64,000 nt of DNA from Candidatus Hebobacterum abditum (GTDB lineage: Bacteria; Armatimonadota; Hebobacteria; Hebobacterales; Hebobacteraceae). Within the stretch, counting starts at the first letter, position 1; each line of letters begins with the position of its first letter. This document shows positions 667 through 16,641 of this stretch, piece after piece. Location of the stretch: positions 1 through 64,000 of the forward strand of contig JALGXW010000017.1 in assembly GCA_029821875.1 (NCBI GenBank), read 5' to 3'. Under the pieces are notes generated by a model. That model saw only the letters and a program-made list of their open reading frames with translations. It was not told the DNA's origin and did not search any database. The position numbers and the translations under genes are program-made.

Positions 667-2247
667 TCAGCCTTGCCGCGTTTCAGGCTGGCACGCGTTG
701 CCGGAGAGATCCACCTCCACCTCGAAGAGCCGACGCCAGGGCAGCGAGAGCCGCACAGGTGGCTCCTCACCGGGCGACAGCGCCACCGGAAAACTGGCAA
801 GCAGCTCGCGGGCAAGGGGCCGGAGCTCAGCGCTGACAAACCGCTCCAGTTCGTCGCTCGCATCGCCAAGGGCGAAGGGGTCGGCGCCCATCTGTCGGGC
901 GTGCTCGACCGCTCGGGCTCGGACCGCCGACTGGTACCCATAGTCGTCTACCAGTCGGCTCGCGACGAATTGCCAGCCAGCTTCGGCGGACGCACCGGCG
1001 CGCGCCCGATCTGCAGTGGCCGTCATGCAGAGATGGCTGACGACGGTGCCGATGGTGTTGGCCGCTGTGTTCCACGCGGCAAAGGCATGGAGCTTGCCAA
1101 GAAGCTTGCGCCTCTGCAGAGCGGAGATAAGCTCCGGGTCGGCCCCGTTGCAGTAGGCGACATCGGCAACGCCGGCGAGGCGACCAGCTACAGCCGCGGC
1201 CTGGATGCGGTCTGCCAGGCTGTCGGCCTGGAGAGAGAGGATCGGCGACTGGCCGGGGGGAGGAGCCTCGGCGATGTCTGGTTGCGCCTCGACCGGTGTG
1301 TGGACGAAGAGCATGGCATCTGCTTCTATCGGCGGGCAGACGCGGGCACCGGCGATGGCGATGCTCGCCTCCAGCGTCTGTCGGAGAGGCTGGCTCTCGA
1401 AGGCGGGATACACCTCGGCCCCCCGCTCGGCGGCGTAGTCGGGGCTAATCCCGACGGGACTGCCGCCTGCGAGGACGCAGTGGCGCGCCACGAGAAGAAG
1501 TCCGACCTCGTCCGCGCCCGGGTTCACTGAAGCTCTGTCCCCGATGCGGAACTCCTCAATCTGTGCGCGGAGGGCAAGCTGCTCTGGGACGTGAATCCCA
1601 ACAGGAGCGGCGTCTTCCTGGGACAGCACAAGGTAGTCGATGAGGCCGTCGGCCACCAAGCGGATGGCCGCCTGGTTCACAGCGTGGTTGCGCCGTCGGG
1701 CTTCGAGGTAGTCGCGGAGGGCGGTTGGCCCCAACTTCCGCTCCATCTCCGCCAACTCTTTGGCGGCATCCTGCTCTCCGAGGCGCTCCACACGGTCGAG
1801 CAACTCCGAGTAGCTCCGAAGGAGCAAGTGACCTTCCAGGTCGCCTGACTCAGCCACTGTCCTCCCGAGCCGCATTATGGTGCTGAAGGCGAAGACGGCC
1901 GCGTCGGGCCGCGATTCGCGCAGCGCCCGCACCGCCTCCAGCCTTCGGAGGGCATCCGCCAGAAGCGTATCCGGGGCTCGAGAGGCGACCAGTCCCCCGA
2001 AACACAGCATATCCAGTGAGATCACGAAGCCTTCGGCCTCGGCCTCACCCAGCCAGGCTGCAATGGCGTCGCAATCGCCGGGCCGGGTGAACCAGCCGAG
2101 AGTCTCGCGCGGCGGCATGACGACATCGAGGCCCCCCACGGCCGCAAGCTGACGCGGGAAGAGGCAATTACAAGGCCTGTCGTCGAGGGGCACGATGGCG
2201 AGGGCAGGAAACGGGATGGCGGTCTCCTCCTCTGCGGAATGGCCCAT
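667..2247 (-). CDS. DUF4127 family protein
   Basis: This 526-aa protein matches the DUF4127 family, which is recognised by the N-terminal motif IVPLDDRPCN followed by LFPRQLA and a later SLDMLCFGGLVASR segment. The family occurs mostly in Firmicutes and Armatimonadota-like genomes and its biochemical function is not established. There is no signal peptide or membrane segment. ATG 2247 is the start that leaves the usual short N-terminus before the PLDDRPCN strand, but it has no ribosome binding site and lies inside a promoter-like box (TAGAAT). An in-frame start at 2307, or a later GTG inside IVPLDD, are alternatives. The gene diverges from the radical SAM fusion across about 216 bp. Confidence 0.85.
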   Translation of the reverse strand: MGHSAEEETAIPFPALAIVPLDDRPCNCLFPRQLAAVGGLDVVMPPRETLGWFTRPGDCDAIAAWLGEAEAEGFVISLDMLCFGGLVASRAPDTLLADALRRLEAVRALRESRPDAAVFAFSTIMRLGRTVAESGDLEGHLLLRSYSELLDRVERLGEQDAAKELAEMERKLGPTALRDYLEARRRNHAVNQAAIRLVADGLIDYLVLSQEDAAPVGIHVPEQLALRAQIEEFRIGDRASVNPGADEVGLLLVARHCVLAGGSPVGISPDYAAERGAEVYPAFESQPLRQTLEASIAIAGARVCPPIEADAMLFVHTPVEAQPDIAEAPPPGQSPILSLQADSLADRIQAAAVAGRLAGVADVAYCNGADPELISALQRRKLLGKLHAFAAWNTAANTIGTVVSHLCMTATADRARAGASAEAGWQFVASRLVDDYGYQSAVRARAVEHARQMGADPFALGDASDELERFVSAELRPLARELLASFPVALSPGEEPPVRLSLPWRRLFEVEVDLSGNACQPETRQG

Positions 2248-2273
2248 TCTAGTCAGCACAGGCCTGCTGTCAA
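2246..2273 (-). promoter_or_regulatory. promoter-like element and palindrome at the DUF4127 start
   Basis: On the minus strand TTGACA (2268-2273) is separated by 16 nt from TAGAAT (2246-2251). The -35 overlaps an inverted repeat GCCTGCT-N4-AGCAGGC (2262-2279). The putative -10 contains the chosen ATG of DUF4127, so either this is not the promoter of that gene or its real start is further downstream. Confidence 0.35.
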
Positions 2274-2413
2274 GCAGGCGTCCCCAGGAGAGCACACGGG
2301 CTAACACTCGGGCCGAGCGGTGAATTCCCCCATTGCTGCGGGATTGGCACCAAGATGTGCAGAATCACGACGAGTATTGTGCGAAAGTCCGGTGAACTAG
2401 GACATAGACGGGC

Positions 2414-2463: not shown

Positions 2464-5400
2464 ATGCCAGTTAGCGATCAGCTACACGTCGAGAGGAGAG
2501 AGGGCTATCATCTAGTCCTGGATCCCTCCGCTCCCAACTGGGTGGCAGCGAACGCCGACGGTGCCTGGATCCTGCGCCGTCTGCACACCGGCAAGTCGCG
2601 CGACGAGGTGACGTGGGGCTACGCAAGGCGAGCTGGAGTGAGCCTCCGGCGGGCGCTGGAGCTCGTCGAGCCCTTTCTCGACGAAGTCGGCGATCTCGCA
2701 GGCCCCACGCGCGAGTCACCCTACGAGGGGAGGGCCCTCTACCTCGAGCCCGACCGGCTGCGGGAGGTCTGGCTTCACGTCAGCGATCAGTGCAATCTTG
2801 CCTGTCGGCACTGTCTCGTGTCTTCGGGACCTGCCGGCGACGCAGGCCTGGAGACGAATGCGCTCCGTGGGATAATCCGGCAGGCGTGCGATCTCGGGGC
2901 CGACACCTTCTACTTCACCGGCGGCGAGCCGCTGCTGCGGCGCGATCTCTCGGGCCTTCTCCACGATGTCACCACGACGTACGGCGCGAGCGCGGTCGTG
3001 CTGACGAATGGCACTCTCCTTGAGGGCGAGCTGCTGGAGAGGCTGTCTGCGCTGCCTCGAGAGCGCCTCTTCCTGCAGGTGAGCCTAGACGGCTCGACCG
3101 CCGCACGCAACGACGCGCTCCGGTCGGCGGGGAGCTTCGACGGCGCGGTACGCGGCATTCGGTCGGCTCTTCAGGCTGGCCTTCACGCCACCGTTGCGAC
3201 GGTGGTCTTGCGGAAGAACCTGGACGACTTGATTCCGATAGCCGATCTGGTGCACGGTCTGGGAGTCGAGCACATGCACTTGATGTGGCAGCATGTGCGC
3301 GAGCGCGGCGCGCGCCTGCCGCGGGCGGGAATGCGGGCCTTGATGTCCGCCGTCACCCGGCTCCACCAGCACTCCGGCAGGATCGGGCTGGTCGTGGACA
3401 ACTTCGAGAACGCCCGCCGGACGGTCAATGGCGATCCGGGCATCAAGTACGATCTGTCGAACGCCTGCTGGGACAGCCTCGCCGTCCACCGGGATGCCGG
3501 TGTCTTTCCGTCTGCGTGTCTGGTTGGCATCGGCTCGGAGGTCGCCGGCTCTCTCCTCCAGACTCCACTCAAAGATGTGTGGCTCGGGTCGGAGCGGCTC
3601 GCCCGTCGCCGCGAGCAGAGCGTCATCGACGGGGACGGCCTGGATGGCGATCCGTGGGTGTTCCTTCACGGGGGCGGGGACCCCGAGCAGGCTTACTTCG
3701 CGTCAAATGGCAATGGCGACGTGGTTGCGGATCCCTATCTGCCGCTCCACCGGGCCATCGCTCGCAGCATTATCGACGAGACGGTGGGAGAGCGCCGCAG
3801 GCTCATTGGCTCCCCGCCGCCGGGTCCGGTCGTCTACCACCTGATGGGCGACGATGGGTACGGCTGTCCGACTGAAGCGGGGGTCAAGAACGGAGGCGAA
3901 CATAAGGTCGACTTCGTACACTCCAATTGCGTCCTCATTCAAGACGTCATCGCGAAGTCGAGGGCGGAGATACGCGACTACTATGGCGAGGCCGCTCGCG
4001 AGCCCAAGACCGAGATATGCCAGCCCATCGCCATCGACCAGCGACACCTTGCGCACATCCCGGACGAGGTCATTGCCCGCTCCTACGGCTGCGGGAGCCC
4101 GGTGTTCGCGGCCGACCCGAAGCCGGGCGAGAAGGTGCTTGACCTCGGCTCCGGAGCCGGAATGGAGGCCTTCATCGCCTCCCGCCTCGTCGGACACAGC
4201 GGTGCCGTGCTGGGAGTCGACATGACTCCGGACATGCTGCGCTTCGCCACCGATGCCCGCCGCTCCGTGGCCGCTCGACTGGGCTACGACAACGTGTTCT
4301 TCATGCGCGGGCTGCTCGAGCATCTGCCGGTCGCGTCGGGCGGTGTCGACGCTGTCATATCGAACTGCGTCATCAACCTCTCGCCGGAGAAGGTGAAGGT
4401 CTTCTCTGAGATTCGAAGGGTGCTGAAGCCGGGGGGGCGCGTGGTGATTAGTGATATCGTCAGCCAGTCACCTCTGCCGCCGGAGATTCGCTTCAACCCT
4501 CGCCTGAAGGGGGAGTGCATCGCCGGGGCGCTCACCGAGAGGAAGCTGCTCGCCACGCTGGTGAAGCTGGGATTCGTCGGGATCGAGGTGCTCCAGAAGA
4601 ATGCCTGGCGCACCGTCGACGAGGTGAACTTCGACACGGTGACAGTGCGAGCGCACAAGTCGGCGGCGGGATCGCCCGTCGTCTACGAGTACCCCGGCCC
4701 CTTCCGCTCGGTCACACTCGACTCAGGACAGGAGCTTGTGCGGGGAGTCCCGGCCGAGGTCGACTCGGGTCTCATCGTGACGGCTGATGGCGGCCGGCCG
4801 ATCGCGGGGGCCGGGGTGTCGGCGCCAGGAGTCGGCCCCGAGACCCACCTGCGGGATTGCATGGTGTGTGGCTCGCCCCTGGTCTACCTCGGGGAAGAGG
4901 TGAACCTCAAGTGCTACTACTGCGGAGAGACAAGGGCCGCAAACGCACACTGCGAGGCCGGCCACTTCGTCTGCGACGGCTGCCACGCAAGAGACCATGT
5001 AGGGTTCATCAGGACCTTCTGTCGGACCACGGCGGGACTTGATCCGATAGCCATCTTCTCGGAGATGCGGCGTTCGCATCTGTTCCCGCTGCACGGACCG
5101 GAGCATCACGCATTGGTGCCGGCCGCGTTTCTGACGGCCTACCGGAACCGCTTTGGCGAACCGCCGCAAGGCCGGGCGGAGGCTGCCATTCAGCGCGCGG
5201 CGAACCTCCCCGGGGGGACGTGCGCCTACTGGGGCGGCTGCGCGGCGGCGCTGGGCGTCGGCATCGCCTATGCCGCCATCTTGCGAGCCACCCCGCTCTC
5301 GCACGAGGAGCGCGGGACTGTGCAGACAGTCGTCAGTCAGATCCTCTCCCACCTTGGGAAGTTCGATACCCCGCGCTGCTGCCGCCGCGAGAGCTACCTG

Positions 5401-5544
5401 GCGCTCCGCGTGGGCTGCGAGCTTTCCCGCAGCTACCTCCCTCACGCCCTCGACTGCGGCCCTCTCCCGCCGTGCGACCAAATGGCCCTCAATCGCGAAT
5501 GCCTGGGCGAGGGCTGTCCGCTGCATCCACCGACCCGCGATTAG
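2464..5544 (+). CDS. PqqD-like / radical SAM / ArsM-like methyltransferase / DUF5714 fusion protein
   Basis: This 1026-aa protein joins four modules. Residues 1-80 resemble a PqqD-type recognition domain. Residues ~100-360 are a radical SAM domain with the cluster motif CNLACRHC (Cys110, 114, 117), GGEP at 153-156 and a C-terminal CW...PSACL cysteine pair (335, 352) like an auxiliary-cluster or twitch region. Residues ~500-735 are a SAM methyltransferase (LDLGSGAGMEAF at 559-570) of the arsenite-methyltransferase type, with YGCGSP, SNCVINLS and GEC; Cys519, Cys634 and Cys684 sit where ArsM has its metalloid-binding thiols. Residues ~795-1026 form a DUF5714-like domain with cysteines at 799, 802, 817, 820, 830, 837 and 840. 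The assignment to radical chemistry and methyl transfer is from family knowledge; the substrate, possibly arsenic or another thiophilic species, is inferred. The gene stands alone. Confidence 0.85.
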   Translation: MPVSDQLHVERREGYHLVLDPSAPNWVAANADGAWILRRLHTGKSRDEVTWGYARRAGVSLRRALELVEPFLDEVGDLAGPTRESPYEGRALYLEPDRLREVWLHVSDQCNLACRHCLVSSGPAGDAGLETNALRGIIRQACDLGADTFYFTGGEPLLRRDLSGLLHDVTTTYGASAVVLTNGTLLEGELLERLSALPRERLFLQVSLDGSTAARNDALRSAGSFDGAVRGIRSALQAGLHATVATVVLRKNLDDLIPIADLVHGLGVEHMHLMWQHVRERGARLPRAGMRALMSAVTRLHQHSGRIGLVVDNFENARRTVNGDPGIKYDLSNACWDSLAVHRDAGVFPSACLVGIGSEVAGSLLQTPLKDVWLGSERLARRREQSVIDGDGLDGDPWVFLHGGGDPEQAYFASNGNGDVVADPYLPLHRAIARSIIDETVGERRRLIGSPPPGPVVYHLMGDDGYGCPTEAGVKNGGEHKVDFVHSNCVLIQDVIAKSRAEIRDYYGEAAREPKTEICQPIAIDQRHLAHIPDEVIARSYGCGSPVFAADPKPGEKVLDLGSGAGMEAFIASRLVGHSGAVLGVDMTPDMLRFATDARRSVAARLGYDNVFFMRGLLEHLPVASGGVDAVISNCVINLSPEKVKVFSEIRRVLKPGGRVVISDIVSQSPLPPEIRFNPRLKGECIAGALTERKLLATLVKLGFVGIEVLQKNAWRTVDEVNFDTVTVRAHKSAAGSPVVYEYPGPFRSVTLDSGQELVRGVPAEVDSGLIVTADGGRPIAGAGVSAPGVGPETHLRDCMVCGSPLVYLGEEVNLKCYYCGETRAANAHCEAGHFVCDGCHARDHVGFIRTFCRTTAGLDPIAIFSEMRRSHLFPLHGPEHHALVPAAFLTAYRNRFGEPPQGRAEAAIQRAANLPGGTCAYWGGCAAALGVGIAYAAILRATPLSHEERGTVQTVVSQILSHLGKFDTPRCCRRESYLALRVGCELSRSYLPHALDCGPLPPCDQMALNRECLGEGCPLHPPTRD

Positions 5545-5564: not shown

Positions 5565-6953
5565 CTACGGCTCCGTATCCCCGGGCCGCTCCCCCGGCGG
5601 GTAGATCGACCCCTCATCGAACTGCGGCCTCCCCGGTCCGGTTAGGCTCCGCCCAAACGTCGCCGGTGGCTTCGGTCCGCCCTGGCGCACCATCTGCCGG
5701 CTCGGCCACCGGTAGTCAAGCTGGCCTATGTAGTACCAGAGCAGCAGCGCGAGCCCCATGGCCACGACAGACCAGCGGACCAGCGGCCGCCCCCAGCTGT
5801 GCATCTTGCTCGCGCTCCACGCGGCGAGCTCCCAGGCCGCCAGCCCCACCAGCCAGGCCGTGCCGAGGTGCGGCAGGTAGCGGTAGTGCTTGAAGGCCGG
5901 ATTCCAGTAGAGGTCGTGGACCGGCAGATAGAGGGCCACCTGCCACGTGATGCCGAGCGCAAGCTGCCTCCGCTGCCGCGCCAGCAGGATCGCCAGCCCT
6001 GCCCAGAACGCGATGTGCTCGAGAAGAATGCGAGGGTCGGTCCACAGATAGATCGGCAGGCTTGCTCCCTGTGACCGCCACTCCCTAACCACTTCGTAGG
6101 CCCTGGGGCAGACCACGTCCTTGAACAGCCACGTCACGCTTACAGATAGCGGCCGAAGCTGGGGCGCGTTCTGCTGCGCGTACTCCGCCATCGGCCAGGC
6201 GTGCAGCCGCATCCACAGGTAGGGGAGGAGCGCCACGGCGATCACCGCGACACCCAACACGCGCTGCATCGCGCTCCGCCTCCCCGGCACGACCGCGGCC
6301 GCTGTGGCCAGGAACAACGGCGCCACCGCCCCCGGCTCCTTCGCCAGCGCCGACAACAGCACGCAGGCCGTCGCTGCCGCCAGATGCCACCCCGACCGCC
6401 CCTGCATCCACCCCAAGTAGAGATGCACCCCTGCCAGCAGGAATACCCCACACAGCAGATCCTGTCGCCCATTGATCCAGTCCACGGCCATCTTCCCGGG
6501 CGGAAACACAGCCGCCACCACGCCCGCCAGCCTCGCCGCCCACACCGGCGCGCCGGTCCGCGCGGCGAGCGCCGCCACGAGCCATGCACACAGGAAATGA
6601 AGCAGCACGTTCCCGAGGTGGTACGCCCAGGGACGCGGTCCTGCGACCCACCAATTCACGAGCAACGACAGCCGCGTCAGCGGGCGATACTCGAAGTGCG
6701 TGTAGGCCCAGTACCCCCGCGTGAACCAGCCCGCGACATCCTCCGGCGTATGGTGCAGGGCCGCTTGCGTGATGTGATAGAAGTCATCGGGGTTGGCGAG
6801 GTCGAGGCCCGCGAACAGCGAGGGAAACCAGACGATGACGGCGAGCAGCAAGAGCAGCGCCGGGTAGGCGGCTCGCGCTCGCTCGGGCTCCGCGAGCAGC
6901 GACCTCGTGAGGCCCTCGATTCCCGCGACGATTCCACAGAGTCGCTCGCGCAT
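5565..6953 (-). CDS. GT-C-like polytopic membrane protein (TMTC/PMT-type glycosyltransferase candidate)
   Basis: This 462-aa protein has about ten hydrophobic segments. An early loop contains NPDDFYH, in the place where GT-C glycosyltransferases have a catalytic acidic pair, followed by FEYRPLTRLS and the YHLGNVLLHF helix. That combination is typical of TMTC and dolichyl-phosphate-mannose mannosyltransferase relatives, which transfer sugars from lipid carriers on the outer face of the membrane. Donor and acceptor are unknown. The start at ATG 6953 was chosen because the open frame upstream runs over the divergent dehydrogenase gene. It is convergent with the radical SAM fusion, with 20 bp between the stop codons. 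Confidence 0.7.
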   Translation of the reverse strand: MRERLCGIVAGIEGLTRSLLAEPERARAAYPALLLLLAVIVWFPSLFAGLDLANPDDFYHITQAALHHTPEDVAGWFTRGYWAYTHFEYRPLTRLSLLVNWWVAGPRPWAYHLGNVLLHFLCAWLVAALAARTGAPVWAARLAGVVAAVFPPGKMAVDWINGRQDLLCGVFLLAGVHLYLGWMQGRSGWHLAAATACVLLSALAKEPGAVAPLFLATAAAVVPGRRSAMQRVLGVAVIAVALLPYLWMRLHAWPMAEYAQQNAPQLRPLSVSVTWLFKDVVCPRAYEVVREWRSQGASLPIYLWTDPRILLEHIAFWAGLAILLARQRRQLALGITWQVALYLPVHDLYWNPAFKHYRYLPHLGTAWLVGLAAWELAAWSASKMHSWGRPLVRWSVVAMGLALLLWYYIGQLDYRWPSRQMVRQGGPKPPATFGRSLTGPGRPQFDEGSIYPPGERPGDTEP

Positions 6954-7059
6954 CGTACTGAAGTTGCCCCGGCCACATGTCTTCGGCTCGGCCGGCCACC
7001 TCACCTTGACCTCGCTCCCGCCCCAGGACCGGCGCCGAGCCACAGCGAATAGCTCACAC

Positions 7060-8079
7060 ATGAAAGCCTGGTTCCTCACCGGCCCCCGCGCCCTCGAGCT
7101 CCGCGAGGTTCCCGAGCCCCACCCGGGCCCAGATGAGGCCTTCATCCGCGTGCGCGCGGTGGGCATCTGCGGGTCGGACGCTGAGTGCTATTCGGGAAAG
7201 CATCCGCTTCCGAACTACCCGCGGCTGCCAGGGCATGAGTTCTCGGGCGAGATCGCCTCGGTCGGGCCGGCCTGGTCGGGGCCCGCAGTGGGAACGCGTG
7301 TCGCCGTCGATCCCGCGCTCTCATGCGGCGAGTGCTACGCGTGTCGGGCGGGCCGACACAACTGCTGTGTGAACGTGTCGATCGCGGGGGTGCACCGGCC
7401 GGGTGCGATGGCCGAGTATGCTCTCTGCCGCGCGTCTCAGTTGTGCCCGATTCCAGACGATATGACCTTCGAGACGGCCGCGGTCGTGGAGACCCTGAGC
7501 ATCGGCGCGCACGCGTGCCGCCGCGCCAACGTCTTGCGCGGAGACCACGTCGTCGTCCTCGGTGCCGGCCCCGTCGGGCTGTGCAGCCTGATCATGGCTC
7601 GGAGGGTGGGGGCGTCGGCCCTCGTCGCCGAGCTGCTTGCGTGGCGACGCGAACTTGCCGCCGAGCTTGGGGCGGAGATGGTGGTAGACCCGGAAACGGA
7701 CTCAGTGCCCGAGGCCGTTCGCGATTTCACGGACGGCCATGGCGCGCACGTCGTGGTCGATGCCACGGGTGAGATCGACGGGGCGGAAACCGCGCTCGCC
7801 ATCGTCGGCGCGGCCGGACGGGTCGTCATAATGGCCATTCTGGATGAGCCGATGCAGGTGAGGCCCTGGCAGCTTGTGCGGCGGGAGCTGACGATACTCG
7901 GGTCGCGCCTGTCGCTGGCCGATTTCGGCGAGTTGGTGGCGATGGCGGCTTCGGGCGAAGCACCGCTGGAGAAGCTGGTAACACACCGCTATTCCTTCGC
8001 CGAGGCAGGCCAGGCCTTCGAGGCGGTTTGCCGCCGGCCGGAGGGGCTGGTGAAGGCGATGGTGTTGCCTCAGGAGTAG
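7060..8079 (+). CDS. zinc-dependent medium-chain dehydrogenase (first copy)
   Basis: This 339-aa protein is an NAD(P)-dependent alcohol/polyol dehydrogenase of the medium-chain family. Visible features are GICGSD with the catalytic-zinc cysteine, GHEFSGEI, the structural-zinc cysteines in CGECYACRAGRHNCC and the Rossmann motif VLGAGPVGL. The substrate is probably a polyol, sugar alcohol or threonine-like 2-hydroxy compound, which cannot be settled from sequence. ATG 7060 gives the usual family length. It is followed after 65 bp by an LsrF-like gene and then a second dehydrogenase of identical length, suggesting one catabolic operon. Confidence 0.9.
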   Translation: MKAWFLTGPRALELREVPEPHPGPDEAFIRVRAVGICGSDAECYSGKHPLPNYPRLPGHEFSGEIASVGPAWSGPAVGTRVAVDPALSCGECYACRAGRHNCCVNVSIAGVHRPGAMAEYALCRASQLCPIPDDMTFETAAVVETLSIGAHACRRANVLRGDHVVVLGAGPVGLCSLIMARRVGASALVAELLAWRRELAAELGAEMVVDPETDSVPEAVRDFTDGHGAHVVVDATGEIDGAETALAIVGAAGRVVIMAILDEPMQVRPWQLVRRELTILGSRLSLADFGELVAMAASGEAPLEKLVTHRYSFAEAGQAFEAVCRRPEGLVKAMVLPQE

Positions 8080-8967: not shown

Positions 8968-9987
8968 ATGCGCGTCGCCATGTACTACCGCAATAGCGAC
9001 GTCCGCCTCGAGGAGATGCCCGCGCCGAAGATCGGCCCCGGCGAGGTGCTCGTCAGGGCGATGGCTTGTGGCATCTGTGGCAGCGATGTCATGGAGTGGT
9101 ATCGCATCAAGCGCGCACCGCTCGTCCTCGGCCACGAGATGGCCGGCGAGATCGCCGAGGTCGGCGACGGGGTCCAGGGCTGGTCGGCCGGGGACCGCGT
9201 CTTCGCCAGCCACCACCTCCCCTGCAACACCTGCCATGCCTGCCTCACCGGGCACCACACGGCCTGTGAGACACTGCACACCACCAACTACGACCCAGGC
9301 GGGTTCGCCGAGTATGTCCGCCTCCCCGCGCTCAACGTTGACCGCGGGCTCTTCCGGCTCCCCGATGACATGGACTACGACACCGCCACCTTCATCGAGC
9401 CTGTGGCGTGTGTGGTGCGCGGGCTCCGCGCGGTGGCCGCGCCGCCGGGCAGTACCTACCTCGTGCTCGGCAGCGGCATCTCCGGGCTCCTCAACATCGC
9501 AGCCGCCCGCGCCTTCGCTGCCGGCCGCATCTTCGCCACCGATGTGAACTCCCGCCGCCTCGACCTCGCCCGCCAGTTCGGTGCCGACGATGCCTTCGAC
9601 GCGGCCGACGACATTCCGGCCAGGCTTCGCGCGGCGAACACGGGTCGCCTCGCCGACTGTGTCATCGTCTCCACGGGCGCGGCGGAGGCCGCCGCCCAGG
9701 CGCTCACCTGTGTAGCCCCCGGTGGTACCGTGCTCTACTTCGCCGTGCCTACGGGAGACATCAGCGTCCCCATCAATGACTTCTGGCGCAATGACATCAC
9801 CATCCGCACCACCTATGGCAACTCGCCGGCCGATGCGGAACAGGCGATTGCGCTGCTGGAGGCCGGGTACATCCCGGTCGAGCAGATGATCACCCACCGC
9901 CTGCCCCTGGCCGAGACGGAGAAAGGCTTCGGGCTTGTGGCGGAGGGACGGGAGTCACTGAAAGTTGTCATCCACCCGCAGGAGTGA
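8968..9987 (+). CDS. zinc-dependent medium-chain dehydrogenase (second copy)
   Basis: This 339-aa medium-chain dehydrogenase has GICGSDVMEW, GHEMAGEIAEVGDGV, the structural-zinc motif CNTCHACLTGHHTAC and a nucleotide-binding LGSGISGLLN segment. It is clearly diverged from the dehydrogenase at 7060, so the two probably act on different substrates or on successive steps around the LsrF-like enzyme. ATG 8968 starts 25 bp after the aldolase stop. Its 3' end overlaps the TTG start of fdhD by 23 bp, which couples the sugar-type genes to the formate dehydrogenase genes. Confidence 0.9.
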   Translation: MRVAMYYRNSDVRLEEMPAPKIGPGEVLVRAMACGICGSDVMEWYRIKRAPLVLGHEMAGEIAEVGDGVQGWSAGDRVFASHHLPCNTCHACLTGHHTACETLHTTNYDPGGFAEYVRLPALNVDRGLFRLPDDMDYDTATFIEPVACVVRGLRAVAAPPGSTYLVLGSGISGLLNIAAARAFAAGRIFATDVNSRRLDLARQFGADDAFDAADDIPARLRAANTGRLADCVIVSTGAAEAAAQALTCVAPGGTVLYFAVPTGDISVPINDFWRNDITIRTTYGNSPADAEQAIALLEAGYIPVEQMITHRLPLAETEKGFGLVAEGRESLKVVIHPQE

Positions 9988-10795
9988 TGAGTCCGCCACG
10001 GCCGAGCCGACCGCAGCTGCCTCGGTCTGGCGCCTGAGGGGAGGGCAGCTCCAGGCCGACGAGGCGACCATCATCGTCGAGGAGCCGCTCGAGATCTTCG
10101 TTGACGGCGCCCCCTATGCAGTCGTCATGCGGACGCCCGGCGATGACATCGCCCTGGTCGCCGGCTTCTGTTTGGCGGAGGGCCTTATCGACGGGCCGGC
10201 GGATCTCGGATCGATCCAGGCCTGTGACGTAGAGGACGCCAATCGCGTCGCGGTTATCAGGACCGGCGAGCGAGAGCCTCCATCGCGGGCTGTGCCGCAT
10301 GCGATCTCGTCGAGCTGCGGTCTCTGCGGTCGCGAGATGATCGACGACATCGTCAAGCGCTTCCCCGCGATCCCCGAGGACTTCAGCACCTCCCTGGCGA
10401 ATCTGCTCGCCTTGGCGGCCCGGCTCCAGGAGGCGCAGCAGTACTTCCAACCTACGGGCGGATCGCACGCGGCCGCTCTGTTCGACCAGGGCGGAGAGTT
10501 GCTCTCGGTGGCCGAGGACATCGGGCGACACACTGCCCTGGATAAGGCCATCGGCCGGCTGCTGCTCTTGGGCCAGCTGGCGGAGGTTCGCGTCGCTGTC
10601 TTGTCGGGCCGTTGTAGCTTCGAGATGGTACAGAAGGCCGCTCGAGCGGGTATTCCTATAGTGGCGAGCGTGTCGGCGCCGACGGAGCTGGCTATCGAGC
10701 TCGCACAGCGCGCCGGAGTGACGCTTGTTGGGTTCGTTCGCCGGGAGTCGCTCACCGTATATGTTGATGGCGGCCGTATCTCCGACATGACGTAG
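9965..10795 (+). CDS. fdhD: formate dehydrogenase accessory sulfurtransferase FdhD
   Basis: FdhD passes sulfur from a cysteine desulfurase to the molybdenum cofactor of formate dehydrogenase and is required for its activity. The 276-aa product has the family signature SSSCGLCG with the two functional cysteines, then FQPTGGSHAAALF, EDIGRHTALDK and VLSGRCSFEM. The frame has no ATG; TTG 9965 lies inside the preceding dehydrogenase gene and has GGGAG a short distance upstream, indicating translational coupling. The formate dehydrogenase subunits and mobA follow directly, which supports the assignment. Confidence 0.93.
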   Translation: MSSTRRSDESATAEPTAAASVWRLRGGQLQADEATIIVEEPLEIFVDGAPYAVVMRTPGDDIALVAGFCLAEGLIDGPADLGSIQACDVEDANRVAVIRTGEREPPSRAVPHAISSSCGLCGREMIDDIVKRFPAIPEDFSTSLANLLALAARLQEAQQYFQPTGGSHAAALFDQGGELLSVAEDIGRHTALDKAIGRLLLLGQLAEVRVAVLSGRCSFEMVQKAARAGIPIVASVSAPTELAIELAQRAGVTLVGFVRRESLTVYVDGGRISDMT

Positions 10796-10878
10796 CACTC
10801 GCTGCTCCATGGGTGGTCGTCGGCGTCAGGGACCATCTGCCGTCTGTTGAGACCGAGCCGAGGGATAGTCGGTAGCTC

Positions 10879-11388
10879 ATGGCTGAGAATGCAACTCCGG
10901 ACAGGTTGGTCTCTCAGGGCCCGTCAGAGGACGACGTTGTGGCGGCCCTGGACTCGCTGGACGCTCGCCCCGAGACGAACCTGATCGGAGCGCTTCAGGA
11001 GGTCCAAGACCGGTTCGGGTATCTTCCTTCGCCGGCCCTGGAGGCAATGAGCGAGCGCTCCGGGATTCCCCTGAGTCGCATTTATGGTGTCGTCACCTTC
11101 TACGCGCAGTTCTACACCGAGCCGCGGGGACGACATACGATCCTATGCTGCCGCGGCACGGCCTGCCACGTGAAAGGCGCAGGCCGGGTGCTGGAAGCTG
11201 TTGAGCGCGAGCTGGGAATCGAGGAGGGTGAGAGCACCCCAGACCTCATGTTCTACCTGGAGACCGTGGCCTGCCTGGGAACGTGCTTCCTGGCGCCGGT
11301 CATCATGATCGACAACGAGTACTTCGGAATGCTGACGCCGCAGAAGGTGGCGGCGATTCTGCAGAACTTCCGAGCCGAACGGCAATGA
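10879..11388 (+). CDS. NuoE/HoxE-like [2Fe-2S] subunit of NAD-linked formate dehydrogenase
   Basis: This 169-aa thioredoxin-like ferredoxin corresponds to NuoE and to the gamma subunit of soluble NAD-dependent formate dehydrogenases and hydrogenases. The cluster ligands are seen in CCRGTACHVKG and, about 35 residues later, ACLGTCFLAP. The N-terminal helical part contains ALQEVQDRFGYLP and IYGVVTFYAQF, both typical of the family. It passes electrons within the flavin module formed with the next gene, whose ATG overlaps this stop codon (ATGA). Confidence 0.93.
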   Translation: MAENATPDRLVSQGPSEDDVVAALDSLDARPETNLIGALQEVQDRFGYLPSPALEAMSERSGIPLSRIYGVVTFYAQFYTEPRGRHTILCCRGTACHVKGAGRVLEAVERELGIEEGESTPDLMFYLETVACLGTCFLAPVIMIDNEYFGMLTPQKVAAILQNFRAERQ

Positions 11389-13226
11389 CACGCCTGGATT
11401 CAATTGACGCTCTGGAGAAGCTGCGCGGCGATCTCGCCGCGCAGGAAGGAGCCGGGGTCGTCGTCCGCGTCTGCTCGACCGGCTGCCGCGCTCTTGGCGC
11501 GCTGAGCGTGTGCGAGGCCCTGGAAAGGGAAATCGCGCGGCGGGCCCTCGGCTCGAAGGCGCGGGTGGTGCGCGCCGGCTGCCACGGGCTCTGCGCGGGC
11601 GCCGTAGCAGTCGTGGTGGATCCACAGGGGATCTTCTACCAGGGCGTCACGACCGAGGACGCGCCTGAGATCGTCGAAGAGACGGTAGTCGGCGGCCGCA
11701 TCGTCGAAAGGCTCTGCTGGTCTCTCGACGGCGAGGCCGTGCCGCTGAAGCACGACATCCCCTTCTACAAGCACCAGACTCGCCTTGTGCTGCGGAACTG
11801 CGGAGTGGTCGATCCTGCAAGTTTGGAGGACGCCATTGCACACGGCGCCTACTCCGCGGCCGCCCAGGCGCTCTCGGACATGAGGCCGGAACAGGTGATC
11901 GAGGAGGTGCTCGCGTCGGGCCTGAGAGGCCGGGGCGGAGCGGGCTTCCCGACCGGCAGGAAGTGGCAGTTCGCCCGTGCGGCGGAAGGAGAGCCGAAGT
12001 ACATCATCTGCAACGCCGACGAAGGCGATCCGGGTGCTTTCATGGACAGAGCGTTGCTGGAGGGCGATCCTCACCTGATCATAGAGGGCATGATCATCGG
12101 CGCCTACGCCATCGGCGCGAAGAAGGGCTTCATCTACGTACGGGCCGAGTACCCTATTGCCATCCAACACACGAAAGCGGCCCTGGAGCAGGCGCGAGAG
12201 GCAGGACTGTTGGGTGAGAGCATTCTGGGGACTGGCTTCGACCTCGACATCGAGATGAGGGTGGGCGCCGGCGCATTCGTCTGCGGTGAGGAGACAGCGC
12301 TCATCGCTTCGATAGAGGGCAAGCGCGGCATGCCGCGGTCGAGGCCGCCGTTCCCAGCGAGTTTCGGTCTCTACGGAAAGCCCACCAACATCAACAATGT
12401 TGAGACGTGGGCCAATGTGCCTCGGATCATAGAGGAGGGCAGCGAGGCCTATGCGAAGGTCGGCACGGAGGGTTCGAAGGGCACGAAGATATTCGCTCTG
12501 GCCGGAAAGGTGCGCAACACGGGCCTTGTCGAGGTCCCGATGGGCGCGACGCTGCGGCAGATCGTGTTCGATATCGGCGGCGGCATACCGGACGACCGGG
12601 AGTTCAGGGCGGCTCAGATGGGCGGCCCCTCGGGGGGGTGCGTTCCGGCCGATTACCTGGATCTCCCGATCGACTACGACTCGGTGAAGCAGGTGGGCGC
12701 CATCATGGGGTCGGGCGGCCTGATCGTGATGGACGACAGCACCTGCATGGTGGACATCGCCCGCTTCTTCACGGACTTCGTGCAGTCGGAGTCGTGCGGG
12801 AAGTGTGTGCCGTGCCGGGTCGGCACGCGGCGGATGCTCGAAATCCTGACGCGCATCTGCAACGGGGAGGGGGAGATCGGTGATGTCGAGCGACTTGATC
12901 GGCTCGGGAAGATGGTGCTGGCGACGTCTCTGTGCGGCCTGGGCCAGACCGCGCCGAATCCGGCACTGTCCACGATCCGGTACTTCCAACACGAGTACGA
13001 CTCCCACATCAACGAGCGGCGATGTCCCGCGGGTGCGTGCCAGGCATTGATCGGATATCGCATTCTCGAAGACACCTGTACTGGCTGTGGGGTCTGCCTC
13101 AAGGCCTGCCCGGTGGGAGCGATCTCGGGGGAGAAGAAGCAGCCGCACTCGATCTCCGCATCGGTGTGCATCAAGTGCGGGGCCTGCCACGAGAAGTGCC
13201 GGTTCGATGCCATTGTCGTAGAGTGA
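11385..13226 (+). CDS. NuoF/HydB-like NADH-binding flavoprotein subunit of formate dehydrogenase
   Basis: This 613-aa subunit binds FMN, NAD(H) and several Fe-S clusters. It begins with a thioredoxin-like ferredoxin domain (CSTGC, CHGLC), continues with the NuoF core (GRGGAGFPTGRKW, NADEGDPGAFMDR, GAGAFVCGEETALI), the N3-type cluster ESCGKCVPCRVGT and ends with two [4Fe-4S] motifs (CTGCGVCLKACP, CIKCGACHEKC). The added N- and C-terminal domains match HydB/HylB-type subunits of NAD(P)-linked and electron-bifurcating enzymes rather than respiratory NuoF. ATG 11385 overlaps the previous stop by 4 bp. Confidence 0.93.
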   Translation: MTRLDSIDALEKLRGDLAAQEGAGVVVRVCSTGCRALGALSVCEALEREIARRALGSKARVVRAGCHGLCAGAVAVVVDPQGIFYQGVTTEDAPEIVEETVVGGRIVERLCWSLDGEAVPLKHDIPFYKHQTRLVLRNCGVVDPASLEDAIAHGAYSAAAQALSDMRPEQVIEEVLASGLRGRGGAGFPTGRKWQFARAAEGEPKYIICNADEGDPGAFMDRALLEGDPHLIIEGMIIGAYAIGAKKGFIYVRAEYPIAIQHTKAALEQAREAGLLGESILGTGFDLDIEMRVGAGAFVCGEETALIASIEGKRGMPRSRPPFPASFGLYGKPTNINNVETWANVPRIIEEGSEAYAKVGTEGSKGTKIFALAGKVRNTGLVEVPMGATLRQIVFDIGGGIPDDREFRAAQMGGPSGGCVPADYLDLPIDYDSVKQVGAIMGSGGLIVMDDSTCMVDIARFFTDFVQSESCGKCVPCRVGTRRMLEILTRICNGEGEIGDVERLDRLGKMVLATSLCGLGQTAPNPALSTIRYFQHEYDSHINERRCPAGACQALIGYRILEDTCTGCGVCLKACPVGAISGEKKQPHSISASVCIKCGACHEKCRFDAIVVE

Positions 13227-13251
13227 ACATGCGGGACGGTTGGTCGAGGAC

Positions 13252-15993
13252 ATGAGCGAGATGAAGGAAGCAACGAAGACGAGGAGCACAGGTGAGCAGG
13301 TCTCCGTGACCATCGACGGCAGAGAGGTTACGGTCCCGGCCGGCACGAGCGTACTCGACGCCGCGCTGAGCGCTGGCATCGATATTCCACACCTCTGCTA
13401 CCTGCCCGAACTGGGCCTGCCAGCCACTGGATCGTGTCGCCTCTGCCTGGTGGAGGTAGAGGGGGAAAAGGGTCCGGTCGCATCCTGCGTGCACCCCATC
13501 GCGCCGGGCATGGTCGTCCGAACGGACAGCGACGAGCTTCGCGAGTACAGGCGGACGGTCATCGACTTGCTGCTCTCCGATCACCCCCACGACTGCCTGA
13601 CCTGTGAGCAAGCAGGCGCCTGTGACCTCCAGAAGTATGCGTACCTTCTGAACGTCAAGGATTCTGAGTATCGGGGCGAGAGCGTGTGGCCCGACCCCGT
13701 GCAGGACGGTCCCGCGATCACCTACGATAAGAGCAAGTGCATTCTGTGCGGCCGGTGCGTGGAGGTCTGCCAGAACGTCCAGGTCACAGGGGCCATCGAC
13801 TTCATGAGCCGTGGCTTTGAGGCACGGGTCGGCCTGCCCCCAGCCATGCCCCGCGAGGAATCTGTCTGCGTCGAGTGCGGCAACTGCATCGACGTCTGCC
13901 CGACGGGGGCACTTGCCTATGTGGGCGCGCAGGGCGCGGGACGCCAGTGGGAGCTCGACCGCGTGACAACGGTCTGTCCGTATTGCGGATGCGGGTGTCT
14001 GCTGGAGATCTCGACTCGCGACGGCAGCATTGTCGACATAAAGGGTGCTCCCGGCGCCGGGCCGACACGCGGACTGCTGTGTGTGAAGGGCCGCTTCGGC
14101 TTCGACTTCATCGGGCACGAGGAGCGACTCACCCAGCCCTTGATTCGGCGCGACGGCGAGCTGGCCCCGGCGACATGGGATGAAGCGCTGGATTTCATCG
14201 CGAGCCGCCTGTCGGCCATCAAGGAGAAGCACGGCGCCGATGCCATCGGCGGACTCGCCTCCGCAAAGTGCACGAACGAAGAGAACTACCTGATGCAGAA
14301 GTTCGTGCGGGCAGTGATCGGCACCAACAACATCGATCACTGCGCGCGGCTCTGCCACGCCTCGACTGTGGCCGGCCTCGCCCGCGCCTTCGGCAGCGGA
14401 GCAATGACGAATTCGGTGGACGACCTGGCGGAGGCCGACGTGATGTTCGTGATCGGGTCGAACACGACCGAATGCCATCCCGTCATTGGGGCCGCCATCA
14501 AGCGCGCCGTGATGAGCGGCAGGACTCGGCTCATCGTGGCCGATCCCCGCGCCATCGAGCTTACCGAGGTGGCCGAGCTGCACCTACGGCACAAGCCCGG
14601 CACCGATGTCGCCCTCATCAACGCACTCGCTCACGTCATCCTCGAGGAAGGACTGGCGGACGAGGAGTTCATCCGTGAGCGGACGGAGGGATTCGAGGAG
14701 TTCCGCAAGGCCGTGGCCGCCAACACAGCGGCGTTCGCCGAGAAGATCACGGGCGTACCGGCGGAGGCAATCGCCGAGGCGGCCCGGCTCCACGCCTCTG
14801 CCCCGGCCGCGTCGATCATCTACTCGATGGGTATCACCCAGCACACCACCGGCACGGATAACGTCTTCGCTCTCGCCAACCTGGCCATGTTGACAGGGAA
14901 CATCGGCAAACCGGGGGCCGGCGTCAACCCCTTGAGGGGCCACAACAACGTGCAGGGCGCATGTGACATGGGCGCGCTGCCCGACGTCTATCCAGGTTAC
15001 CAGAAGGTGGTGGTGGAGGCCGCGCGCTCGAAGTTCGAGCAGGCCTGGGGCGTCTCACTGCCGGCATCTCCGGGGCTAACCGTGGTGGAGATGATGCACG
15101 CGGCGGCCGAGGGGGAGCTCAAGGCCCTCTACATCATGGGCGAGAACCCGATGCTGAGCGATCCCGATGTCAATCAAGTCGAGGAAGCGCTGAAGAAGCT
15201 GGAGTTCCTCGCGGTTCAGGACATCTTCCTCACCGAAACCGCCCAACTCGCCGATGTCGTCCTTCCCGCGGCGGCCTTCGCCGAGAAGGACGGTGCCTTC
15301 ACCAACACCGAGCGCCGCGTGCAACGGGTGCGGCAGGCACTCGACCCGCCGGGCGAGGCGCGCTCCGACTGGTCCATCATCTGCGACCTGGCGGCCCGCA
15401 TGGGATACGAGATGTCCTATGCCGGCCCGGCGGTCATCCAGGACGAGATCGCCGGTGTGACCCCGATCTACGGCGGGATCACCTATGCTCGACTGGATGT
15501 CGAGTCCCTGCAGTGGCCCTGCCCGGATCGAGATCATCCGGGCACATCCATCCTCCACCGGGAGAAGTTCACGCGGGGCCTCGGCAAGTTCCATCCGGTC
15601 GAGTTCATTCCGGCGAAGGAGCTGCCGGATGAGGAGTATCCGCTCCTGCTCTCGACCGGCCGCATCCTCGAGCACTTCCACACTGGCACCATGTCGCGGC
15701 ACTCCGAGGTGCTCGACAAGCTGGTCTCGGTGGGTGCGATCGAGATCAGTCCCGCCGATGCCGAGCGCCTCGGGATCGAGGACGGAAAGCACGTCACGGT
15801 CACGTCCCGGCGCGGCCACATCGAGATCGCCGCTCGCGTCACCGATAGGGTGGCTCCCGGAGTTGTCTTCCTCGCCTTCCACTTCAAGGAGGCGCCCGCG
15901 AACCGGCTCACGATCGCGGCGCTCGATCCTGTCGCGAAGATACCGGAGTTCAAGGTCTGCGCGGTGAAGATCGCGCCGGCCGCCGCTCAGTGA
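13252..15993 (+). CDS. fdhA: formate dehydrogenase catalytic subunit with NuoG-like N-terminus
   Basis: This 913-aa molybdopterin enzyme oxidises formate to CO2 or works in reverse. The N-terminal part carries a [2Fe-2S] domain (HLCYLPELG, SCRLCLVEVEG), the His-Cys cluster region (HDCLTCEQAGACDLQ) and two [4Fe-4S] motifs (CILCGRCVEVC, CVECGNCIDVCP). The catalytic part opens with TVCPYCGCGC and LLCVKGRFG. The active-site segment NNIDHCARLCHAST has cysteine (about Cys368) where many homologues have selenocysteine. The C-terminal cofactor-cap domain includes LLSTGRILEHFHTGTMSR. ATG 13252 was chosen over 13261 because of the purine-rich stretch ahead of it. Together with the two preceding genes it forms an FdsABG/HylABC-like complex, probably cytoplasmic since no signal peptide is visible. 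Confidence 0.93.
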   Translation: MSEMKEATKTRSTGEQVSVTIDGREVTVPAGTSVLDAALSAGIDIPHLCYLPELGLPATGSCRLCLVEVEGEKGPVASCVHPIAPGMVVRTDSDELREYRRTVIDLLLSDHPHDCLTCEQAGACDLQKYAYLLNVKDSEYRGESVWPDPVQDGPAITYDKSKCILCGRCVEVCQNVQVTGAIDFMSRGFEARVGLPPAMPREESVCVECGNCIDVCPTGALAYVGAQGAGRQWELDRVTTVCPYCGCGCLLEISTRDGSIVDIKGAPGAGPTRGLLCVKGRFGFDFIGHEERLTQPLIRRDGELAPATWDEALDFIASRLSAIKEKHGADAIGGLASAKCTNEENYLMQKFVRAVIGTNNIDHCARLCHASTVAGLARAFGSGAMTNSVDDLAEADVMFVIGSNTTECHPVIGAAIKRAVMSGRTRLIVADPRAIELTEVAELHLRHKPGTDVALINALAHVILEEGLADEEFIRERTEGFEEFRKAVAANTAAFAEKITGVPAEAIAEAARLHASAPAASIIYSMGITQHTTGTDNVFALANLAMLTGNIGKPGAGVNPLRGHNNVQGACDMGALPDVYPGYQKVVVEAARSKFEQAWGVSLPASPGLTVVEMMHAAAEGELKALYIMGENPMLSDPDVNQVEEALKKLEFLAVQDIFLTETAQLADVVLPAAAFAEKDGAFTNTERRVQRVRQALDPPGEARSDWSIICDLAARMGYEMSYAGPAVIQDEIAGVTPIYGGITYARLDVESLQWPCPDRDHPGTSILHREKFTRGLGKFHPVEFIPAKELPDEEYPLLLSTGRILEHFHTGTMSRHSEVLDKLVSVGAIEISPADAERLGIEDGKHVTVTSRRGHIEIAARVTDRVAPGVVFLAFHFKEAPANRLTIAALDPVAKIPEFKVCAVKIAPAAAQ

Positions 15994-16020
15994 GAGCGCG
16001 GCCCGAGTCGGCCGAAGGCC

Positions 16021-16641
16021 ATGGCAGAGAAGCTCCCCAAGCGACGAATCGCCGCCGCGATTCTCGCCGGCGGGAAGGCGACTCGATATGGCGGCATCCA
16101 TAAAGGGCTGCTTCGTCTCCCCGATGGCACGACGATAGTCGAGCGGCTTCTCCGCGTGGTGTGGGCCGCCGGAATCAGCGAAGTGGCCATCTGTGCGAAC
16201 GATGCCGAGGCCTACCGGCATATTGGCCTTCCCGTCGTCTCGGACAATACACCCGATGCGGGGCCGCTCGGCGGCATCGAAGCCGCGCTGCGCCACTTCC
16301 AAGACCGATTGGACGGCGTGCTCATCCTGCCGTGCGACTTGCCGGCCCTCACCGAGCGCGAGCTGTCGGAACTGCTCTCCTCCTTCTCCCGCGATCAGGG
16401 CAAGGTGCACTTCGCCGCCGTCGAGGGAGGCAAGGAAGAGCCGCTGGTTGCCGTCGTCCCGCTCTCTGTGTTCGACCATGTGCGGGAGGCGCTGACAGCG
16501 GGCGAACGGCGTGTCGGTCGGCTTTGGGCGAAGTTGCGTGCCGTGAGCGTGCCCTTTCCGAGCGCAGCGCCGTTCCTCAACGTCAACTCCCCCGAAGACC
16601 TGGAGCACGCCATAGAGACGGGAGCGGTCCGAGCCCCCTAG
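16021..16641 (+). CDS. mobA: molybdenum cofactor guanylyltransferase
   Basis: MobA attaches GMP to molybdopterin to make the MGD form used by formate dehydrogenase. The 206-aa protein starts with the nucleotidyltransferase motif AILAGGKATRYGGIHKGLL and has DNTPDAGPLGGIEAAL and ILPCDLPALT, which supply the metal-binding aspartate. It lies 27 bp after the catalytic subunit it is expected to serve. MobA paralogues also include other nucleotidyltransferases, but this neighbourhood makes MobA the best reading. Confidence 0.9.
   Translation: MAEKLPKRRIAAAILAGGKATRYGGIHKGLLRLPDGTTIVERLLRVVWAAGISEVAICANDAEAYRHIGLPVVSDNTPDAGPLGGIEAALRHFQDRLDGVLILPCDLPALTERELSELLSSFSRDQGKVHFAAVEGGKEEPLVAVVPLSVFDHVREALTAGERRVGRLWAKLRAVSVPFPSAAPFLNVNSPEDLEHAIETGAVRAP

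Follow-up and report, generated by a model that had tools for sequence, protein, structure and literature searches.

Radical S-adenosylmethionine (SAM) enzymes that partner with the methyltransferase ArsM can make bacterial organoarsenicals that go beyond simple methylarsenicals (PMC8552651, PMC12159101). In arsinothricin synthesis, the radical SAM enzyme ArsL acts first and is followed by an ArsM that has four cysteines (PMC8552651); in arsenosugar synthesis, the radical SAM enzyme ArsS adenosylates arsenic (PMC12159101). ArsS and ArsL are the only radical SAM enzymes forming carbon-arsenic (C-As) bonds that are reported in one review, and each is a separate protein. Here we describe a gene in a 64,000-nucleotide stretch of DNA from Candidatus Hebobacterum abditum (assembly GCA_029821875.1, contig JALGXW010000017.1, positions 1 to 64,000, hereafter the window) in which a radical SAM domain, an ArsM-like methyltransferase and a cysteine-rich DUF5714 domain are encoded as one polypeptide. 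We tentatively propose that its product would be a multi-domain SAM enzyme that needs no partner protein and whose substrate is a thiophilic metalloid, with As(III) as the likeliest candidate.

Results

One reading frame joins two SAM-dependent domains

The open frame at positions 2464-5544 of the forward strand begins with an ATG start codon and encodes 1026 amino acids (aa). A Pfam scan of the protein recovers Radical_SAM at aa 106-262 (E 1e-16), Methyltransf_31 at aa 553-691 (E 1e-29) and DUF5714 at aa 849-1020 (E 3e-50); taken together with NCBIfam matches and homologues, the chain runs from a radical SAM core through a degenerate SPASM domain and an ArsM-like methyltransferase to a zinc-ribbon-like segment and DUF5714. 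An initial annotation made from the sequence had placed the radical SAM, ArsM-like and DUF5714 parts in one chain, as Pfam and NCBIfam both find, and its domain reading is largely right, although it overlooked the degenerate SPASM domain and a linker that carries C468 and C489. A full-length AlphaFold2 model is poor overall (mean predicted local distance difference test score, pLDDT, 58.4) and moderate over the methyltransferase domain.

An in-depth homologue search covering 291 Armatimonadota genomes (profile threshold E <= 1e-70) matched 11 of them, ten of which carry the radical SAM-ArsM fusion, whole or cut by a contig end. The initial annotation had suggested looking for the same domain order elsewhere, and these ten genomes spread it over nine genera and six families of the phylum; the eleventh (G126) has the zinc-ribbon/DUF5714 part only. 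All three parts stand uncut in the window's own genome (G000), which is metagenome-assembled, and in G103, G073, G280 and G285. Contig ends cut the copies of G023, G048, G076 and G189, one of the two copies in G103 has a masked stretch, and the homologue in G200 is without DUF5714 and has a short cysteine-rich tail at its end. Comparison with the congeneric G023 gives ratios of nonsynonymous to synonymous substitution (Ka/Ks) of 0.055-0.235 across all domains, indicating that every part of the fusion is under purifying selection. Because the fusion is found again in independent assemblies, and Ka/Ks stays at 0.06-0.24 in every domain, it is not an assembly artefact. Two scans of viral contigs revealed no relative of the fusion, and plasmids yielded only separate ArsM-type proteins, none of which spans 80% of the query; a general scan of genome contigs, which used one protein as its query, reached close relatives only.

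The methyltransferase domain carries the ArsM cysteine set

NCBIfam, Protein Data Bank (PDB) and Foldseek matches delimit the ArsM-like domain to aa 498-735 (positions 3955-4668, forward strand, as for all parts of the fusion given below). Alignment to the structures 5evj and 4kw7 shows that four of its cysteines occupy the positions of C44, C72, C174 and C224 of CmArsM: C519 in an EIC motif (4018-4020), C543 in YGCGSP (4090-4092), C635 in SNCVINLS (4366-4368) and C685 in GEC (4516-4518), each of them invariant (11/11). The initial annotation had identified the latter three contexts correctly but numbered their cysteines 519, 634 and 684, and it counted three kept cysteines where there are four, C519 being the upstream residue in EIC. 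The class I SAM motif and fold are present as well, and the sequence DLGSGAG at aa 560-566 is conserved.

Profile and structural searches point the same way. The arsenite methyltransferase model NF008823 matches aa 514-726 with 223.5-226.5 bits (210-237 for all fusions), and the top PDB sequence matches of the domain are CrArsM and CmArsM. When the methyltransferase part of the AlphaFold2 model was submitted to Foldseek, the top 13 matches were all ArsM/AS3MT structures; the matched ArsM structures include 5jx7, 4rsr, 4kw7 and the As(III)-bound 6cx6, at about 35% identity. Sequence and fold comparison with ArsM, part of what the initial annotation had called for, finds a complete and invariant cysteine set, with best PDB matches that are ArsM proteins with and without bound arsenicals.

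The fusion probably does not stand in for an ordinary ArsM. At least five fusion genomes (G000, G048, G073, G189 and G200) encode a separate canonical ArsM that scores above the cut-off, and the fusion is therefore unlikely to be a duplicate detoxifier, routine As(III) methylation being probably not its role. The canonical ArsM of the window's genome scores 349.6 bits against NF008823 and the fusion domain 226.5; against the arsinothricin ArsM model NF040538, it is the fusion domain that scores higher, at 186.7 bits (cut-off 500) versus 143.3 for the canonical protein. The gene for this canonical ArsM (L032 8009-9411, contig G000:C87) is followed by one for a DGC-domain protein.

A tree of 24 rows joins the fusion domains in one group with methyltransferases from ArsR-permease operons of Staphylococcus plasmids (98/93 support), a placement that we regard as provisional because the Staphylococcus methyltransferases end on a long branch. 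Two such plasmid loci (L049 and L050) hold ArsR-permease-methyltransferase operons whose methyltransferase scores 350.9 bits against the arsinothricin ArsM model, again under the cut-off of 500, and is the closest neighbour that the fusion domain has in this tree. As a separate matter, the methyltransferase region (3955-4668) differs from its G023 counterpart (L028) at 14 of 130 four-fold sites (0.11), while the rest of the gene differs at 0.34-0.55 of such sites, and no comparable dip is seen against other relatives. The dip points to a recent recombination event within the gene or to an exchange of the domain.

The radical SAM core precedes a SPASM domain with replaced cluster ligands

The radical SAM core, assigned by Pfam and NCBIfam, spans aa 99-290 (2758-3333). 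It has the CX3CX2C motif (C110, C114 and C117; 2791-2814) inside the PF04055 domain and a GGEP motif (2920-2931), features that define the radical SAM superfamily and that are invariant in nine of nine aligned homologues; the CNLACRHC and GGEP sequences picked out by the initial annotation are located at aa 110-117 and 153-156, respectively. The closest named family is Rv1681, whose model NF049973 matches aa 101-283 with 123.9-127.2 bits, short of its cut-off of 380; in seven of the seven genomes tested, the fusion ranks first against this model, scoring 110-127 bits and leading by a wide gap. Seven genomes could be ranked with TIGR04167, a model that we take to represent the ArsS family: no radical SAM protein outscores the fusion in G000, G023, G048, G073, G103 or G200, and one does so in G285, a weak hint towards ArsS. 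Two further models served as controls: MftC places the fusion first in G048 and G103 but not in G000, G023, G073, G200 or G285, and TrsS (NF045646) places it sixth in G000. Its 40.9 bits against the TrsS cut-off of 490, together with this rank, rule out membership in the TrsS radical SAM selenoproteins.

Ahead of the core, aa 16-74 (2509-2685) form a segment that may resemble PqqD and the recognition elements (RREs) of ribosomally synthesized and post-translationally modified peptide (RiPP) pathways. The assignment is weak: PF05402 matches two of eight homologues at E 0.03-0.06, the window's own segment reaches 14.1 bits (E 0.062; gathering score 23.4), and a PDB search with the segment returned no PqqD match. 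The PqqD-like N-terminus of the initial annotation retains a faint profile signal, with no PqqD match in the PDB.

Downstream of the core, aa ~308-444 (3385-3795) correspond to a degenerate SPASM domain, as judged by profile, hhalign and column alignment. A profile of aa 280-500 matches SPASM proteins elsewhere in Armatimonadota, and hhalign of the middle region against one SPASM protein of the phylum gives a probability of 96.7 and E 3.6e-10; a PDB sequence search with aa 280-500 found nothing significant, the sole radical SAM entry being CteB, itself a SPASM protein, at E 1.2. In the column alignment, which alone sets the register of the ligand comparison, none of the SPASM ligands CxxCx5CxxxC survives, nor does the later DPYC cysteine; in their place stand a variable residue, D396, H402, D406 and L426. 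The yPC cysteine position is taken by S350 (threonine in G280), and C335, the sole SPASM-type cysteine to be kept, is lost in G285. Because the ligand cysteines are replaced, the middle region is a SPASM domain predicted to be without auxiliary iron-sulfur (Fe-S) clusters. D396, H402 and D406 are invariant in ten of ten homologues, an arrangement that permits a different metal site at the former ligand positions. The linker that follows (3796-3954; Ka/Ks 0.055) contains two further invariant cysteines, C468 in GCP and C489 in SNCVL (10/10).

Elsewhere in the phylum, loci L110 and L111 (G053 and G179) contain frames of 839-898 aa with apparently two tandem radical SAM/SPASM modules, the first of which may be frame-shifted in L110.

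A cysteine-rich tail ends in DUF5714

From aa 799 onward the protein contains 17 cysteines. Seven of these (799, 802, 817, 820, 830, 837 and 840) lie in a zinc-ribbon-like segment (aa 799-840; 4858-4983) defined by alignment, and ten (853, 920, 926, 972, 973, 985, 998, 1004, 1013 and 1018) lie within DUF5714 itself (aa 849-1020; 5008-5523), which is marked by HGPEHH, PGGTC, RCCRRES and a C-terminal C/N/C/C pattern. The initial annotation had recognized DUF5714 (PF18978, 170.4 bits against a gathering score of 26.2) and counted seven cysteines in it, where ten lie inside the domain and seven ahead of it. A model of the tail built with 13 sequences is well scored (pLDDT 86.8, predicted template modelling score 0.80), and a Foldseek search of the PDB with it produced no fold match (best E 1.1). 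The MbdU model NF045648 spans the zinc-ribbon-like segment, matching aa 794-1006 with 99.6-104.1 bits and not reaching its cut-off of 600. Our literature search found no paper on DUF5714.

The HGxxHH, PGGxC and RCC motifs of the fusion tail recur, along with its C-terminal C/N/C/C pattern, in stand-alone DUF5714 proteins of the same family. PF09719 (C_GCAxxG_C_C) matches these proteins under its cut-off, with E 1e-5 to 6e-4, and hhalign against one member was negative; the stand-alone protein in the window's genome (L034 8130-8786, contig G000:C102) is without the zinc-ribbon-like segment and has a sub-cut-off PF09719 match at E 5.9e-4. In-frame TGA codons in two homologues were considered as signs of selenocysteine and rejected. 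The TGA of G126 is a normal stop codon, and that of contig G048:C84 arises in a contig-end copy through a deletion of roughly 15 residues, the intact stretch being present on G048:C306. This C-terminal copy with the deletion (L039/L074) is either a strain variant or an assembly artefact.

Genomic neighbourhood

Intergenic gaps of 156 bp on the upstream side and 20 bp on the downstream side flank the fusion gene. Upstream, and divergently transcribed, lies a gene for a DUF4127 protein (667-2307, reverse strand; identified by Pfam in the window and by sequence in other copies), which is found beside five of the five copies of the window's family for which upstream sequence is available (the window, G023, G048 and both G103 copies) and was not seen in the other families that carry the fusion. 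Downstream, a gene for an integral-membrane protein with no Pfam match (5565-7166, reverse strand) is arranged tail to tail with the fusion. The two intergenic spaces contain no conserved small open frame; as the initial annotation had noted, no RiPP precursor is adjacent, and we set aside a RiPP pathway on this ground. The fusion is without a conserved operon partner, as expected for a self-contained enzyme.

Several genomes have membrane glycosyltransferase-type genes adjoining the fusion, but these differ in family and orientation, and we gave an arsenolipid or glycosyltransferase association no weight. Downstream of the G200 homologue (L022 8701-11442), and sharing its strand, is a gene for a pyridine nucleotide-disulphide oxidoreductase. 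Further along the window, positions 9965-16641 hold a formate dehydrogenase cluster with FdhD-like, NuoE/NuoF-like, FdhA-like and MobA-like genes, as read from their translations; the FdhA-like protein has cysteine at the usual selenocysteine position.

Discussion

By analogy with the ArsS-ArsM and ArsL-ArsM pairs, our best guess, itself held with some reservation, is that the fusion would attach two groups to a thiophilic element, one derived from SAM and the other a methyl. The initial annotation had likewise pictured one chain that generates a radical and transfers a methyl or larger group to such an element, and the cysteine set, the ArsM matches and the known pairs are consistent with it. 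We infer the substrate element, the group transferred, the order of steps and the product as follows. Cysteines of the zinc-ribbon-like segment and DUF5714, those of the C468/C489 linker, or both would capture the element in a thiolate complex. The radical SAM domain, with one [4Fe-4S] cluster and no auxiliary clusters, would then cleave SAM and place a SAM-derived organic group on the element, either 5'-deoxyadenosyl, as with ArsS, or 3-amino-3-carboxypropyl, as with ArsL. Finally, the ArsM-like domain would methylate the element while it is held on C543, C635 and C685, with C519 serving as the exchange cysteine.

Several observations weigh against this proposal. Comparison of homologue loci found no arsenic transporter or regulator among the conserved neighbours of the fusion. 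The NF008823 score of the methyltransferase domain is under the family cut-off of 263 bits, and the radical SAM core lies closer to the uncharacterised Rv1681 family than to ArsS or ArsL, its TIGR04167 scores being weak (41-60 bits, 49.8 for the window, against a cut-off of 300). DUF5714 is not indispensable, because the G200 homologue is without it. Among the Armatimonadota relatives, there is no homologue whose substrate has been established.

Other explanations have some support as well. An ArsM-like fold might have been recruited for an unrelated substrate, such as a small-molecule thiol, a peptide or a cofactor precursor, with the radical SAM and methyltransferase domains catalyzing two consecutive biosynthetic steps and the cysteines serving structural-metal or redox roles. 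Kinship of the radical SAM core with Rv1681 and SPASM maturases would fit such an enzyme, as would the degenerate SPASM domain and the missing arsenic neighbours, and recognition of a peptide or protein would be in keeping with the weakly supported PqqD-like N-terminus. We nevertheless consider this rather unlikely, given that all four arsenic-site cysteines, the exchange cysteine included, are invariant (11/11), that the nearest annotated neighbours of the methyltransferase belong to arsenic operons, and that no peptide precursor gene is adjacent. Somewhat less probable again is a division of labor in which the methyltransferase acts on arsenic and the radical SAM half, forming no C-As bond, modifies a protein or peptide, possibly the fusion's own cysteine-rich tail. 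In favor of this arrangement, DUF5714 has a cysteine-rich core of its own and is also found as a stand-alone protein in these genomes, and the weakly supported RRE-like N-terminus would accord with it; yet both catalytic halves stay joined wherever the contig of a homologue is long enough to cover them, and the G200 protein retains both halves without DUF5714.

An enzyme for selenium, mercury or another organometal, related to the selenoprotein-rich systems of Haft and colleagues with cysteine in place of selenocysteine, seems improbable to us. The tail does match the MbdU model, and the methyltransferase also matches the ArsM/DUF2284, ArsM/AhpD and UXPK-star selenoprotein models. However, the MbdU score is far under its cut-off (104 versus 600 bits), plain arsenite methyltransferase is the highest-scoring model for the methyltransferase domain, the fusion gene has no selenocysteine codon, and the window's formate dehydrogenase carries cysteine at the usual selenocysteine site.

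Returning to the two-reaction scheme, a bolder and decidedly doubtful version of it would make the fusion a single-chain organometalloid synthase in which radical SAM C-As bond formation is coupled to ArsM methylation, D396, H402 and D406 may bind a metal outside an Fe-S cluster, DUF5714 acts as a loading domain with a fold unseen in the PDB, and the product is a novel bacterial organoarsenical. A fused radical SAM-ArsM enzyme that recurs in a phylum of mostly uncultured bacteria, beside a normal ArsM, would point to a new organoarsenical or other organometalloid. The fusion would also offer a one-gene system for assaying both SAM reactions; DUF5714 would gain a function open to testing, and the SPASM domain, predicted to be free of clusters, is itself unusual.

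Set against described systems, the fusion resembles each in part. Its methyltransferase has the fold, SAM motif and four cysteines, in the same sequence contexts, of ArsM/AS3MT; unlike these proteins, it is embedded in a 1026-aa chain, scores under the NF008823 cut-off and coexists with a separate canonical ArsM. For its radical SAM core, Rv1681 (NF049973) is the closest named family, but the match ends at profile position 253-268 of 326, and Rv1681 has neither a methyltransferase nor DUF5714. The cysteine-rich tail aligns with MbdU over 226 residues; where MbdU is listed with a CU motif (PMC13188914), the fusion has CC, and it contains no selenocysteine and no in-frame TGA. Arsinothricin synthesis likewise combines a radical SAM enzyme with an ArsM, and the fusion methyltransferase scores 187 bits to NF040538; ArsL and ArsM, however, are separate proteins, the CX3CX2C motif of ArsL lies at 194-201, SPASM and DUF5714 have not been described for ArsL, and no ArsQ is found beside the fusion. 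ArsS and ArsM, too, are separate, and a different domain follows the ArsS radical SAM core; what the fusion has in common with them is the radical SAM/ArsM partnership itself, together with a radical SAM domain that heads the TIGR04167 ranking in six of the seven genomes where it could be ranked.

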